Below, piece after piece: positions 8,692-32,285 of a stretch of 54,260 nt of DNA. The number at the start of each line of letters is the position of its first letter. Positions within the stretch are counted from its first letter, which is position 1. The notes under the pieces were generated by a model. That model saw only the letters and a list, made by a program, of their open reading frames with translations. It searched no databases and had not been told where the DNA came from. The translations under genes and the position numbers were made by a program. Source of the DNA: a virus; IMG/VR virus record IMGVR_UViG_3300047300_001096, positions 1 to 54,260 of that record; one strand, given 5' to 3'.

Positions 8692-8720
8692 ATTATACCG
8701 CTTTTGCAGTTTAGGGTCAA
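8692..8720 (-). promoter_or_regulatory. Sigma70-like promoter overlapping the TGACCCTAAACTG motif
   Basis: Minus strand: TTGACC, 17 nt, TATAAT. The -35 and the next bases form TTGACCCTAAACTGC, a copy of the 13-bp motif clustered at 27.8-30.2 kb (plus-strand positions 8707-8719). This is the only copy seen to sit exactly as a promoter element. Confidence 0.85.
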
Positions 8721-12899: not shown

Positions 12900-12999
12900 A
12901 TTTTTAGTAGCGCCTGGTCGCCATATCCAGGTAGCTTCAGTGTCAGGGAGGAGAATAACACTTACACGCTATAGCCAATGAATTCGCTACTAAAAATGG
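12898..12999. repeat. Inverted-repeat-bounded element filling the tRNA-Asp/tRNA-Glu spacer
   Basis: CCATTTTTAGTAGCG (12898-12912) and CGCTACTAAAAATGG (12985-12999) form a perfect 15-bp stem whose ends coincide with the tRNA-Asp 5' end and the tRNA-Glu CCA. Inner hairpins CCTGG/CCAGG and AGTGT/ACACT complete a three-way junction. Its arms share TTTTAGTA with the neighbouring element, suggesting common descent or selection. Confidence 0.7.
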
Positions 13000-13072
13000 C
13001 ATCCCGTACCAGATTCGAACTGGTGTAGTCACCGTGAAAGGGTGGTGTCCTAGGCCTCTAGACGAACGGGAT
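12997..13072 (-). tRNA. tRNA-Glu (UUC)
   Basis: 76 nt with encoded CCA. Acceptor ATCCCGT/ACGGGAT, anticodon loop CTTTCAC, T arm ACCAG-TTCGAAT-CTGGT, discriminator G. Confidence 0.93.
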
Positions 13073-28205: not shown

Positions 28206-29000
28206 ATGCTATTTAAAAAACAAGAAATACACTCAATTGATTTTACTGGAACTGAACACTTAAATCTCGAAGGCTGGGAAAGTTGGTGTGAATCGGTAAG
28301 TCTGTCCCACCTTTACACCTGGTTGCTGCCTCAATTAGTAGCTTGGTATGGAACCTGGACTCTAGTAAAAGATGGTGATCGAATTGATGCTTTAGCCACA
28401 GTTAAACACAACTGCCCTGACCCTAAGTCTAGGGCATTTTATATGTTGTCAAGGGTTAAACGAAGTTTATTATTAGCAACACAAACGAAAGCTCCAGAAT
28501 ATGCTACACTAACCCCACTGATCTTAATGGGACAAAAGCGAATGGCTGGAGTTGACTACGAGTCTTGGAGAACAGCCACAAATTTGCAGTGGATTTTAGA
28601 ACCCCGACTCCTAGAAGCAATATTATTAGATGGTAAAGATTTGTCGATGATTGACAGTTTAGGGTCAGAAAGACTCTTAGCTATACAAACACAAGGATTA
28701 ACTACTAAGTCAGGTAAAACAGCAGGCTCAAAGAAGCCTGCAAAGTCTACTTGGAGTTTAACAGGAATTCAGGACACAGAGATTGGGCACTTGCCTAAAT
28801 TAACTCAAACAATCTTAACACAATGCTGGCTAGCACATCCTGAATTACGAACACCTTATATGATCTTAGACTTACAAAACTGGGATAATATGCCCAAACC
28901 TCTAGTATCTAATGATATTTTTAAAGTGGAACAACCACTTCAACCAACCCCGAAACAGAATTTGAAAGAGCTGGCAGATGTAATGCCCTGGGACCTATGA
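28206..29000 (+). CDS. Hypothetical 264-residue protein
   Basis: Not recognised. W-rich N-terminal half (GWESWCESVSLSHLYTWLLPQLVAWYGTWTLV), a Ser/Lys linker (TTKSGKTAGSKKPAKSTWSLTG) and an acidic end with MPWDL, which recalls the DLPWN tip of the helicase. No ribosome site before the ATG (ATATTTAAA). One 13-bp motif copy lies inside the gene (28655-28667). Overlaps the HTH gene by 4 nt. Confidence 0.7.
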   Translation: MLFKKQEIHSIDFTGTEHLNLEGWESWCESVSLSHLYTWLLPQLVAWYGTWTLVKDGDRIDALATVKHNCPDPKSRAFYMLSRVKRSLLLATQTKAPEYATLTPLILMGQKRMAGVDYESWRTATNLQWILEPRLLEAILLDGKDLSMIDSLGSERLLAIQTQGLTTKSGKTAGSKKPAKSTWSLTGIQDTEIGHLPKLTQTILTQCWLAHPELRTPYMILDLQNWDNMPKPLVSNDIFKVEQPLQPTPKQNLKELADVMPWDL

Positions 29001-29350
29001 AATACACTAAAGAAATCACAGACAAATTGATACAAGACTACAAGGCTCAAATACCTGTAGCACAAATTGCACAAGAGTTAGACGTACCAGAACGTAGTGT
29101 GATCGCAAAACTCAGCTCTCTGGGCGTCTACCAGAAAAAATCATATGTCAACAAGCGTGGTGAGATTCCAGTTAAAAAATCGGAGCACATCGAACGCATT
29201 GCTGAGCTTCTGGACGTGGATGAAGAATTGTTGGAATCGCTGGAGAAGGTCAACAAAACGGTTCTCAAGCTAATTGAAGCTAAACTTGCCCAATCTGACC
29301 CTAAACTGCCACAATTAGGCACAAAAAATCAGTTATTTGAAGTTGTTTGA
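28997..29350 (+). CDS. HTH-like DNA-binding protein, paralog family
   Basis: 117 residues. KYTKEITDKLIQDYKAQIPVAQIAQELDVPERSVIAKLSSLGVYQKKSY is the HTH unit shared with the genes at 30672, 31959 and 35894; GEIPVKKSEHIERIAELLDV and SLEKVNKTVLKLIEAKL are the shared linker and C-terminal helix. A motif copy (29296-29308) lies in its 3' end. Regulator role inferred. Confidence 0.75.
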   Translation: MKYTKEITDKLIQDYKAQIPVAQIAQELDVPERSVIAKLSSLGVYQKKSYVNKRGEIPVKKSEHIERIAELLDVDEELLESLEKVNKTVLKLIEAKLAQSDPKLPQLGTKNQLFEVV

Positions 29351-29530: not shown

Positions 29531-29560
29531 TTGACAAGATTTGCCACTCGGTGGTATAAT
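29531..29560 (+). promoter_or_regulatory. Strong rightward promoter
   Basis: TTGACA, 18 nt, TATAAT followed by GGCGC, like the promoter at 31262. Any transcript meets a hairpin 20 nt later (29581-29613). Confidence 0.8.
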
Positions 29561-29576
29561 GGCGCAGAAATGACCA

Positions 29577-29613
29577 AAACAAAAGCCCCTGCACACGAAT
29601 GTGAGGGGCTTTT
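29577..29613. terminator. Bidirectional intrinsic terminator
   Basis: AAAAGCCCCT pairs with AGGGGCTTTT with inner CACA/TGTG. On the minus strand it is followed by GTTTTG. It would end the large minus-strand RNA from 30442 and attenuate the rightward promoter at 29531. Confidence 0.85.
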
Positions 29614-30435
29614 GAAAGCATTTGCAAGTGCACTTGCGTTGTCTTTTTTGTTGCATCAAGGTGTGTTTACGGATAATCAATCCAACCTTGACCCTAAACT
29701 GCCGCGTTAGCTGCCTACTCTGTTAGTCAGTGGTGATGAAGTCACTGTGAGCGTTTAGGTTGCGGGGTTTGCACGTTTCGGTCTTAACTGGGAACTCCCT
29801 ATCAAGATATCCGTGACTAACACATAGATTAACGCATTTGCTAGCGACTGAGCTTTTAGACCTTCGACAGTTTAGGGTCAGATTCGCACCATTATTTAAG
29901 CACCCGTTGCTAGGTCTTGTGCGCCTTTACAGAATGGTTTGCGCAACGCCATTCAATCGCTAGTAAGATTCCATACTTACATTACAGAACTAGGTTCTGG
30001 TCTTGGTTAGAAGATAGCTGTATTTGTTAAGCCAGTTCTTTCTGCTTTATTAGACATTTTTACGAGTGTACTAGATGGCTCGGCATGGGATATAGGGTCG
30101 GCTCCCTAGAACTACTCATTACCTAACACCAACAAGTGGTACACGCTAGGGGTTTCGTCCTGACCCTAAACTGCTGCAGGTTATGAGTATTGAAGTCTCA
30201 CGGACCGTGCTGCTGAGGTAGAGGGTTTCGCTGAACTTACATCAGCTCATCAGAGGGTTAAGTTGGCAGCCGCTAGAGCGTTCCTCGGCTATTAAGTTGC
30301 TATCCCGCAATCAAGTGGCAGGCCTCATAACACCATGTTTGTGCTCCACGCTTGTGCGGTTGAAGCTAAGGGCTGTGGCTCAGAATTCCCCACAATTAAG
30401 ACTTATTTGACACTGATGTCACCCTATCAATTTAT
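29577..30435 (-). ncRNA. Candidate large structured RNA (about 860 nt), GOLLD/ROOL-like in size and setting
   Basis: No open frame on either strand of note. The minus strand has a promoter at 30442-30470 and a terminator at 29577-29613. Domains can be traced by nested inverted repeats: GTTATGAG/CTCATAAC (30180-30331), CTAGCGA/TCGCTAG (29841-29963), GCGTTA+TGTTAGTCA with TGACTAACA+TAACGC (29704-29835), TAGGG/CCCTA, AGAAC/GTTCT, AGCCG/CGGCT, AACTTA/TAAGTT. Base composition is more balanced than the flanks. Large ornate RNAs of this size (GOLLD, ROOL) are known from phages; identity to a known class cannot be tested here. Confidence 0.6.
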
Positions 30436-30441
30436 ATAATA

Positions 30442-30470
30442 ATTATACAGTATTTAGCATACTATATCAA
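30442..30470 (-). promoter_or_regulatory. Promoter of the candidate large RNA
   Basis: Minus strand: TTGATA, 17 nt, TATAAT, with no gene start downstream for 1 kb. Between it and the HTH gene at 30672, 30471-30671 shows no gene; a variant motif copy (GACCCTCAACCACAGCAATC) lies at 30653-30672. Confidence 0.75.
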
Positions 30471-30671
30471 GTAAAAAATTAGACACTCGCTGCAATCAGA
30501 CTACTCACAAAACAGACTAATAAATAATTTGGAGGTTGAGGTGAGATTCATTTGCAAACGGACACCAATTGCTTGGTATTCATTAAGCCCTTCTCGACTG
30601 TCTAAGATATTATTATACAGAATTTAAGGAAGAGGATCAAGTATAAATTTTTTGACCCTCAACCACAGCAA

Positions 30672-30977
30672 TCAACGCAAGTTTTGGAGAATTGCTTCCA
30701 ACACTTCGTGATTGGCTTTTTCGAGGCTATCAAATGCCTCTGGGCTAGCATTGCACAAGTTAGCAATGCGATCAACCAATTCTGCTTTCTTTACACGGGC
30801 TGTGCCCACAGTTTTAGATTTAGCAGTGTAAACACCTTCACGTGAGAGTTTTGCTACCACGCTTCGAGTGGTTTTGCCAAACATTGTTGCCAATGATTCG
30901 ACAGTTGCGCCAGCTTTGTAGTTGGCAACCAACTGAGCTGTTTGCTCAGCTGTGTAATTTACGGTTTTGTCAGTCAT
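30672..30977 (-). CDS. HTH-like DNA-binding protein, paralog family
   Basis: 101 residues from the second of two adjacent ATGs (30977), matching the paralogs' MT(A/D)KTVNYT start and better spaced from AAAGGA. YTAEQTAQLVANYKAGATVESLATMFGKTTRSVVAKLSREGVYTAK is the HTH unit; SLEKANHEVLEAILQNL the C-terminal helix. Own promoter at 31019-31047. Confidence 0.75.
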   Translation of the reverse strand: MTDKTVNYTAEQTAQLVANYKAGATVESLATMFGKTTRSVVAKLSREGVYTAKSKTVGTARVKKAELVDRIANLCNASPEAFDSLEKANHEVLEAILQNLR

Positions 30978-31018
30978 CATATGTCCTTTCAAATGGTTTC
31001 TGCGCTGTTAAAGATATA

Positions 31019-31506: not shown

Positions 31507-31755
31507 TTATCTTTTTGAAGTCAATTTATAATAAATAATAATCGACAAAAAGATTATATTTGCAGTGTAATTAAATAATAATGGCAAATCCATTTTAGGC
31601 AAAATATAAATAAAAGTTAATATTTCGCCTAAAAACCACATAGAAATAAATCCCCAAGTTAATCCCTCAGAGGATTTTGTTCTAATAGATTCAATAGCTT
31701 GTGGCAAACCACAAAATGCCATTAAAATACTGCCTAACCAACCTAAACTTTCCAT
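31507..31755 (-). CDS. SemiSWEET/PQ-loop family small transporter, copy 1
   Basis: 82 residues, three TM segments, the SemiSWEET size. LGWLGSILMAFCGLPQAIESIRTKSSEGLTWGF holds the PQ motif (GLPQ) and the SxGLT signature after TM1; TM2 and TM3 are MWFLGEILTFIYIL and LLFNYTANIIFLSIIIYY. It differs from copy 2 (33297) at 10 of 82 positions. SemiSWEETs form dimeric sugar channels. The promoter's -10 ends 9 nt before the ATG, so the mRNA is nearly leaderless. Confidence 0.88.
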   Translation of the reverse strand: MESLGWLGSILMAFCGLPQAIESIRTKSSEGLTWGFISMWFLGEILTFIYILPKMDLPLLFNYTANIIFLSIIIYYKLTSKR

Positions 31756-31958: not shown

Positions 31959-32285
31959 TCAAATAGGCTTGCTATTTGCTAATGCGTTAAAAATCGCTTT
32001 TAATGCGTTTTTATTAGCCTTAGTTAATGATTCAATATCATTTTCGGGTAATCGCAAAATCGCACCGATTGCATCGGCATGAGTATCTTTTTTAACAACT
32101 GATTCACCAGTTTTAGTTTTATATTCTTTTTTAATATAAACTTTTTCTCGTGAAAGTTTTGCGACAATACTCCGAACAGTTTTACCAAGATTATCTGCAA
32201 TAGTTTCAACAGAAACTCCTGCTTGATAATCGTTAATCATTTTCTGAGTTTGCTCAGGGGTGTAATTTACAGTTTTTGCATTCAT
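31959..32285 (-). CDS. HTH-like DNA-binding protein, paralog family
   Basis: 108 residues. KTVNYTPEQTQKMINDYQAGVSVETIADNLGKTVRSIVAKLSREKVYIKKEYKTK is nearly the same as in the gene at 35894, so the two are recent duplicates. SLTKANKNALKAIFNAL is the C-terminal helix. TCAGGAGAATATT precedes the ATG. Last gene of a unit with the SprT-like and membrane genes. Confidence 0.8.
   Translation of the reverse strand: MNAKTVNYTPEQTQKMINDYQAGVSVETIADNLGKTVRSIVAKLSREKVYIKKEYKTKTGESVVKKDTHADAIGAILRLPENDIESLTKANKNALKAIFNALANSKPI

Follow-up and report, generated by a model that had tools for sequence, protein, structure and literature searches.

We report what is probably the gene for a large phage RNA of a new, tRNA-associated family, in which a hammerhead ribozyme would release an RNA of about 585 nt. 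The gene lies in a 54-kb virus record (IMGVR_UViG_3300047300_001096) that is T5-like by gene content; we refer to the whole stretch that we analysed, all 54,260 nt of it, as the window. For example, its terminase is 51% identical to the terminase of Vibrio phage D254, which is a T5-like phage, and it encodes a tail completion protein of the T5 p143-like type. In our model, transcription of a non-coding RNA of about 860 nt would start at an early-type promoter, run leftward, and stop at an intrinsic terminator. Covariation supports the parts of this RNA, which are, in order, two three-way-junction modules, a type I hammerhead, and folded 3' domains (Table 1).

Table 1. Features of the RNA locus and its surroundings, in window coordinates
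Feature	Position	Strand	Details
D5-like DNA-binding protein gene, syntenic anchor	28997..29350	+	phrog_323, E = 1.3e-5; served as the homolog query
Intrinsic terminator, AAAAGCCCCU-CACA-UUCG-UGUG-C-AGGGGCUUUUGUUUU	29576..29613	-	Folds as a 15-pair hairpin
Second sense copy of the repeat, CAGUUUAGGGUCA, partner of 29865-29881	29686..29704	-	15-pair helix in the window
3' domain, CACG-GAUA-stem-YGAAA-CGUG	29771..29817	-	15 double-change cells versus 4.8 shuffled
Antisense copy of the repeat, UGACCCUAAACUG, able to form a long-range helix	29865..29881	-	Can pair with either 29686-29704 or the hammerhead's substrate strand
Core domain, AAAUACAGCUAUC...UAGCGA, with helices GCUA/UAGC, CAGAA/UUCUG, and GUAAG/CUUAC	29957..30025	-	Covariation
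Type I hammerhead ribozyme with an extra conserved hairpin capping stem III	30154..30261	-	Held-out model R1, 69.6 bits, E = 6e-19; covariation
Predicted cleavage site, GUC^A (C17 = 30162, N1.1 = 30161)	30161..30162	-	Position follows from A15.1-U16.1 and stem I
Hammerhead core, CUGAUGA - stem II GCUGA/UCAGC - GAAA	30226..30253	-	Invariant in homologs except at position 7
Three-way-junction module 2	30264..30335	-	Held-out model R2, 46.8 bits, E = 1.8e-12
Three-way-junction module 1, GGGU..GUCUUAAU-UGUGG..CCACA-GCCC	30370..30424	-	Held-out model R2, 55.9 bits, E = 2.7e-15
RNA promoter, TTGATA-17-TATAAT, early-type	30442..30470	-	11/12 matches; expected start near 30435
Upstream promoter (30640-30612) and highly conserved leader reading into the RNA	30480..30640	-	GGGCUUAAUGAAU-stem-GCCC element resembles the three-way-junction module
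13-bp repeat copies	8707, 27793, 28120, 28655, 29296, 29501, 29689, 29868, 30161	both	Mostly around the D5-like gene

A putative transcription unit without a gene

The original prediction was of a minus-strand non-coding RNA of about 860 nt with its own promoter and terminator and with many folded domains. Both signals are present. The promoter (30470-30442) is kept in every aligned homolog that reaches that far; it resembles the early promoters of T5, and blastn matches to T5-like phages occur at the promoter only. The terminator hairpin (29613-29576) is missed by a simple terminator scan because of a bulged C, and in homologs its stem is altered on both sides (GCCCCU/AGGGGC becomes CCCCGU/ACGGGG). 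The span of about 860 nt between these signals contains no gene, as predicted: its longest reading frame is at most 67 codons, and none of its frames are conserved among homologs. A second promoter upstream (30640-30612) also reads into the RNA, with no terminator between it and 30470.

The predicted multi-domain folding is borne out by covariation among homologs but not by the folding energy of the single sequence, which is unremarkable (z = -1.62 for the minus strand, with 1 of 20 shuffles as good, and z = -0.84 for the plus strand). The single-sequence energy is uninformative; significance for the structure was reached only via the homologs.

On either side of the locus is a gene for a D5-like DNA-binding protein (28997-29350, plus strand; 30672-30992, minus strand). 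With another at 31959-32285, three such proteins are clustered in the window. This phage also encodes, at 31510-31755 on the minus strand, a small membrane protein of the PQ-loop type (Pfam PQ-loop, E = 2e-11). Also, a perfect conserved promoter (TTGACA-18-TATAAT with an extended -10, 29531-29560 on the plus strand) faces the RNA's terminator from the opposite side. A transcript from this promoter would meet a hairpin after about 10-45 nt or would run antisense to the RNA. The tRNAs that had been noted in the same genome are six in number, at 11.4-13.2 kb, and the window's own tRNA-Glu sits away from the RNA locus, at 12997-13072.

Homologs of the RNA

The first relatives were viral contigs that we retrieved with proteins of the same phage. 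The stretch occupies the same position, as non-coding DNA, in at least ten non-redundant close relatives. Identity is mostly about 67-82% across the aligned pieces, with block-wise (mosaic) insertions and deletions, and the promoter and the terminator are conserved. Further members were found via a conserved motif, and a profile then reached distant members with longer RNAs. Taken together, the homologs come from dozens of environmental T5-like phages. Some members were retrieved with a pattern that fixes the hammerhead core; the first, protein-based relatives, those found via the conserved motif, and the loci that were fetched with the D5-like protein are independent of this pattern. Two related phages appear to encode a tmRNA as well (L107, 7630-8007, and L115, 5552-5957), and both the beta-proteobacterial and the permuted models match.

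Our sequence searches did not find the family among cultured phage records. Specifically, blastn against phages and plasmids gave matches that are confined to the promoter or to a tRNA, and a single tblastn of the D5-like protein against cultured phages gave no match. We also ran models on parts of two phages: the hammerhead model (R1, see below) had no match in Vibrio phage D254 (1-21,296 and 67,211-117,210) or in T5 (21,751-121,750), and the three-way-junction model (R2) had no match in the stretches of D254 and T5 that were searched with it (L360, L361, and L362). The family is also absent from Rfam, and it marks a gap in the annotation of T5-like phages.

A hammerhead ribozyme

The RNA contains the strand AACCCU-CUGAUGA-GCUGA-UGUAAGU-UCAGC-GAAA-CCCU ... 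AGGGUC^AGG, which has the architecture of a hammerhead ribozyme: stem II is closed by a UGNAA loop, stem III is closed by an extra hairpin, and stem I is open. Because stems II and III are closed and stem I is open, the hammerhead is of type I, and the cut is predicted to fall between 30162 and 30161.

This motif is present in 35 of the 43 RNAs that we assembled (32 distinct rows were aligned). Across the 32 distinct members, the core (C3 U G A N G A and G12 A A A) is invariant except at position 7, which is U or C. The only substitution seen at C17 is A, which is compatible with the NUH rule: the triplet is GUC in the window and GUA in three members (L128, L223, and L190). The pairs beside the core (10.1-11.1, 1.1-2.1, and 15.1-16.1) are 100% paired in both alignments, and mispairs at these positions are criteria for rejecting a hammerhead (PMC3088659). 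The stems also covary. In the first of these alignments, 85.7% of cells are paired versus 72.9% after shuffling, and there are 92 double-change cells versus 34.4 after shuffling and 5-24 in slid controls (shuffle controls ignore the kinship of the sequences; slid controls and matches to held-out models are the safer evidence). Double changes are found in each of stems I, II, and III, and 28 divergent members have 111 double-change cells versus 43.7 after shuffling. When we built a model (R1) from these 28 divergent members, with the window's close relatives excluded, it found the hammerhead in the window (30261-30154).

Loci that were fetched by the D5-like protein alone give the same picture. 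Strict hammerheads are found in 45 of 80 such loci (a count that includes near-duplicates from the same waters), with 45 on the minus strand, 0 on the plus strand, and all of them on the strand opposite the D5-like gene. Five shuffles of the 580 kb in these 80 loci contained no strict hammerheads. R1 matches about a dozen additional loci; several of these matches are weak, carry an insertion next to the core, or have a longer stem II. Ordinary phage and Legionella hammerheads with a short stem III were also picked up by the core-fixing pattern, so this pattern reads a known ribozyme.

Rfam's hammerhead models have no match in the window, where the gathering score (a detection threshold and not a biochemical feature) is not reached. 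They call two relatives weakly (18.3 bits, E = 1.2, and, for L107, 21.8 bits, E = 0.012; the gathering score is 48.5 bits). The 54-nt insert in stem III is probably why Rfam misses this hammerhead.

The minimum free energy (MFE) fold of the isolated piece (30154-30261) forms stems II and III. In the full-length MFE fold, the substrate strand is paired with the antisense copy of a repeat (see below), and this fold would block the ribozyme. The window's stem I is only 3 bp before a mismatch, a form that other phage hammerheads share, and the elements that might make a tertiary contact between loop II and stem I, a conserved UGNAA loop II and an AAC/AAU stretch in stem I, likewise occur in other phage hammerheads. 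We found neither a repeat unit nor a second ribozyme, one of which a circular or viroid-like RNA would require; in particular, R1 and the strict pattern give no second hammerhead in the window.

The hammerhead is not universal in the family: none is detectable in L110 or L117, and the core is altered in L104, L289, L318, and L330. In these four variants, one more base sits next to the core, and stem II is long and takes in the 13-mer repeat; they may be inactive or switched. On the basis of its structure, we are very confident that the window has a hammerhead, and judging from its sequence, we predict that it is probably active in the cell.

Other structured domains

Two tandem three-way-junction modules, of the form GGGU..NUUAAU-stem-GCCC, lie upstream of the ribozyme, and most relatives carry two copies per RNA. 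The modules covary very strongly (98.9% of cells are paired, with 50 double-change cells versus 12.3 after shuffling and 0-13 in slid controls). R2, which was not trained on the window's two copies, finds both of them. Downstream of the ribozyme, the core domain (29957-30025) has 96% of cells paired and 22 double-change cells versus 7.3 after shuffling, and another 3' domain also covaries (Table 1).

Since the modules, the hammerhead, the downstream domains, and the terminator stem all covary, the RNA is real and is structured along much of its length; we consider it practically certain that this is a structured RNA. Together with the conserved ends, the covariation strongly supports the large multi-domain RNA that was originally proposed. 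That proposal did not include the hammerhead, the two tandem junction modules, the 13-bp repeat, or the tRNA-Glu of the relatives.

The 13-bp repeat

The 13-mer TGACCCTAAACTG has 9 copies in the window, on both strands, versus 0.05 expected. The copy at 8707 (minus strand) overlaps with a sigma-70-type promoter, and another promoter (36846+) contains the core of the 13-mer with one mismatch. The strand that the hammerhead would cleave also falls within the 13-mer (CAGUUUAGGGUCA). Pairing like the helix between 29686-29704 and 29865-29881 is found in many homologs too. A long-range helix between repeats is compatible with these observations, but they are not decisive, because the same 13-mer is dispersed as DNA. 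To us the repeat looks like a protein-binding site, perhaps for the D5-like proteins.

An embedded tRNA and a proposed purpose for the predicted cut

In 11 members of the assembled set, a tRNA lies inside or upstream of the RNA, and in all 11 it is tRNA-Glu(UUC); no tRNA occupies this place in the window or in most members. The CCA of the tRNA stops 5 nt short of the hammerhead core in L138, L199, and L143. L115 and L118 have a second T5-type promoter downstream of the tRNA and directly before the hammerhead.

Given the intact core, we expect that the hammerhead would cut itself at the predicted site. This would leave a 5' piece of about 274 nt, which would contain the modules and the ribozyme and would end in a 2',3'-cyclic phosphate. 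The 3' piece would start with a 5'-OH and measure about 585 nt. The most likely purpose of the cut would be to define where the 3' RNA begins and to detach it from the upstream transcript, which in some relatives is the tRNA-Glu and in others is a short leader from a second promoter. Where the ribozyme comes directly after a promoter, cutting could only trim the leader; where it comes after the tRNA, cutting would separate the tRNA from the 3' RNA. Because both arrangements would yield a 3' RNA with an end that is set by the ribozyme, setting the 5' end is the most economical purpose. Whether it is also the main purpose we consider an even bet. Most other members have terminator-like sites about 500-800 nt further on, as compared to the 3' RNA of about 585 nt in the window. 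Once freed, the 3' RNA might well be a structural or scaffold RNA during infection, as has been supposed for GOLLD and ROOL, but by this analogy we can only weakly suggest such a role.

Alternative explanations

Might the hammerhead mainly serve the tRNA-Glu, by giving it a defined 3' trailer, with the large RNA as a by-product or a processing scaffold? It would fit that every tRNA-bearing member has the same tRNA and that, in three of them, the CCA is so close to the core. But most members, the window included, have no tRNA to be served, a promoter parts the tRNA from the hammerhead in L115 and L118, and the 3' domains covary independently, so we think that this is unlikely. We also think it quite unlikely that the hammerhead is a switch or acts in trans, with GGGUC^A sites in copies of the 13-mer, including copies in mRNAs, being cut or masked by the hammerhead or by antisense copies, which would tie the RNA to regulation by the repeats. 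The cleavage strand does lie within a 13-mer that recurs in the window, and the RNA itself contains an antisense copy that can mask this strand. Nevertheless, in many relatives the hammerhead strand departs from the 13-mer consensus while the core is retained, and the copies of the 13-mer that are inside promoters on the DNA are a better fit to a protein-binding site.

The likeness to GOLLD and ROOL that was originally noted holds for the size, the phage setting, and the nearby tRNAs, and one could add the tRNA within the RNA of relatives and the tRNAs that GOLLD linkers sometimes contain (PMC12286853). Membership in these families, or in another catalogued family of large RNAs, is nevertheless very unlikely: at E <= 5, the Rfam models for GOLLD, ROOL, OLE, HEARO, and raiA find nothing in the window region, no such large RNA family matches near the hammerhead or in the related locus L103 at E <= 10, none matches at the gathering score in 17 other loci, and PMC12286853 mentions no hammerhead for GOLLD or ROOL. 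(Weak Rfam matches to DUF805b, RefA9, and Thr_leader are due to chance or to generic hairpins.) Does the stretch work as an RNA at all, or does it act as DNA, for example as an operator array or a replication origin? A 13-bp repeat that is so far above expectation and in both orientations, between genes for D5-like DNA-binding proteins, could be read that way, but the repeats are also found outside of the stretch, in genes and in promoters. Furthermore, the compensatory changes track RNA helices, and the promoter, the terminator, and the ribozyme core are kept, which makes a DNA element extremely unlikely. Finally, we see next to no chance of a decayed coding region, which would have been grounds for dismissing the RNA. 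Nothing points to one beyond the absence of a gene; the homologs show no conserved frame and keep the structure with compensatory changes, and this covariation refutes it.

Comparison with known RNAs

The self-cleaving RNA that we propose belongs to a separate family from GOLLD and ROOL, and the hammerhead is its most telling part. ROOL is about 580 nt, which is similar to the predicted 3' product of about 585 nt. Like ROOL, our RNA is encoded by a phage and near tRNAs (PMC12286853), but it has no match to ROOL's covariance model. Like GOLLD, it is a phage RNA of over 800 nt from a genome with a tRNA island, and the linker tRNAs of some GOLLD members (PMC12286853) recall the tRNA-Glu here, by analogy only. 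Unlike GOLLD, it does not match the GOLLD covariance model, and the hammerhead and the tandem three-way junctions are absent from the description of GOLLD in PMC12286853.

The ribozyme itself is like other type I hammerheads (Rfam clan CL00010; PMC3088659) in its core (CUGANGA, GAAA, and NUH) and in having stems II and III closed and stem I open, and many hammerheads from phages and Legionella share its UGNAA loop II. Unlike the usual type I hammerhead, it has a conserved extra hairpin of about 40-55 nt in stem III, it lies inside a large multi-domain non-coding RNA, and it is missed at Rfam's thresholds. Hammerheads in phages and prophages are intergenic or near genes, with unproven roles (PMC3088659; PMC7761336). 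In the literature that we searched (subscription papers, theses, and some preprints were outside its scope), we found no report of a hammerhead inside a large ornate RNA.

Another large RNA with its own promoter is RNAX of T5 (AY543070, 40848-41566; 719 nt), which is annotated as a "stable RNA with unknown functions." The 3' end of RNAX abuts a tRNA-Arg, and Rfam recognizes a second tRNA within RNAX (L362 19682-19753, which is AY543070 41432-41503). Searches by profile HMM, R1, and R2 showed no similarity between RNAX and the family, and RNAX has no CUGANGA motif. Perhaps RNAX is a functional counterpart rather than a demonstrated homolog. A bolder reading, which we offer tentatively and would not yet bet on, is that these are widespread, self-processing giant phage RNAs in which the hammerhead would free a folded RNA of the 585-nt class from a precursor, perhaps one that bears a tRNA, and in which antisense repeats would gate the ribozyme. 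The family would then be the first case of a ribozyme built into a large ornate phage RNA, with RNAX as its functional counterpart.

We know of no function for GOLLD, ROOL, and similar large ornate phage RNAs. Hammerheads are common in bacteria and phages, and their purpose is unproven. Here, a hammerhead and a large ornate RNA are combined in one conserved unit, with a cut site that is predicted to a single base and with a recurrent embedded tRNA. The purpose of a phage hammerhead therefore becomes directly testable.
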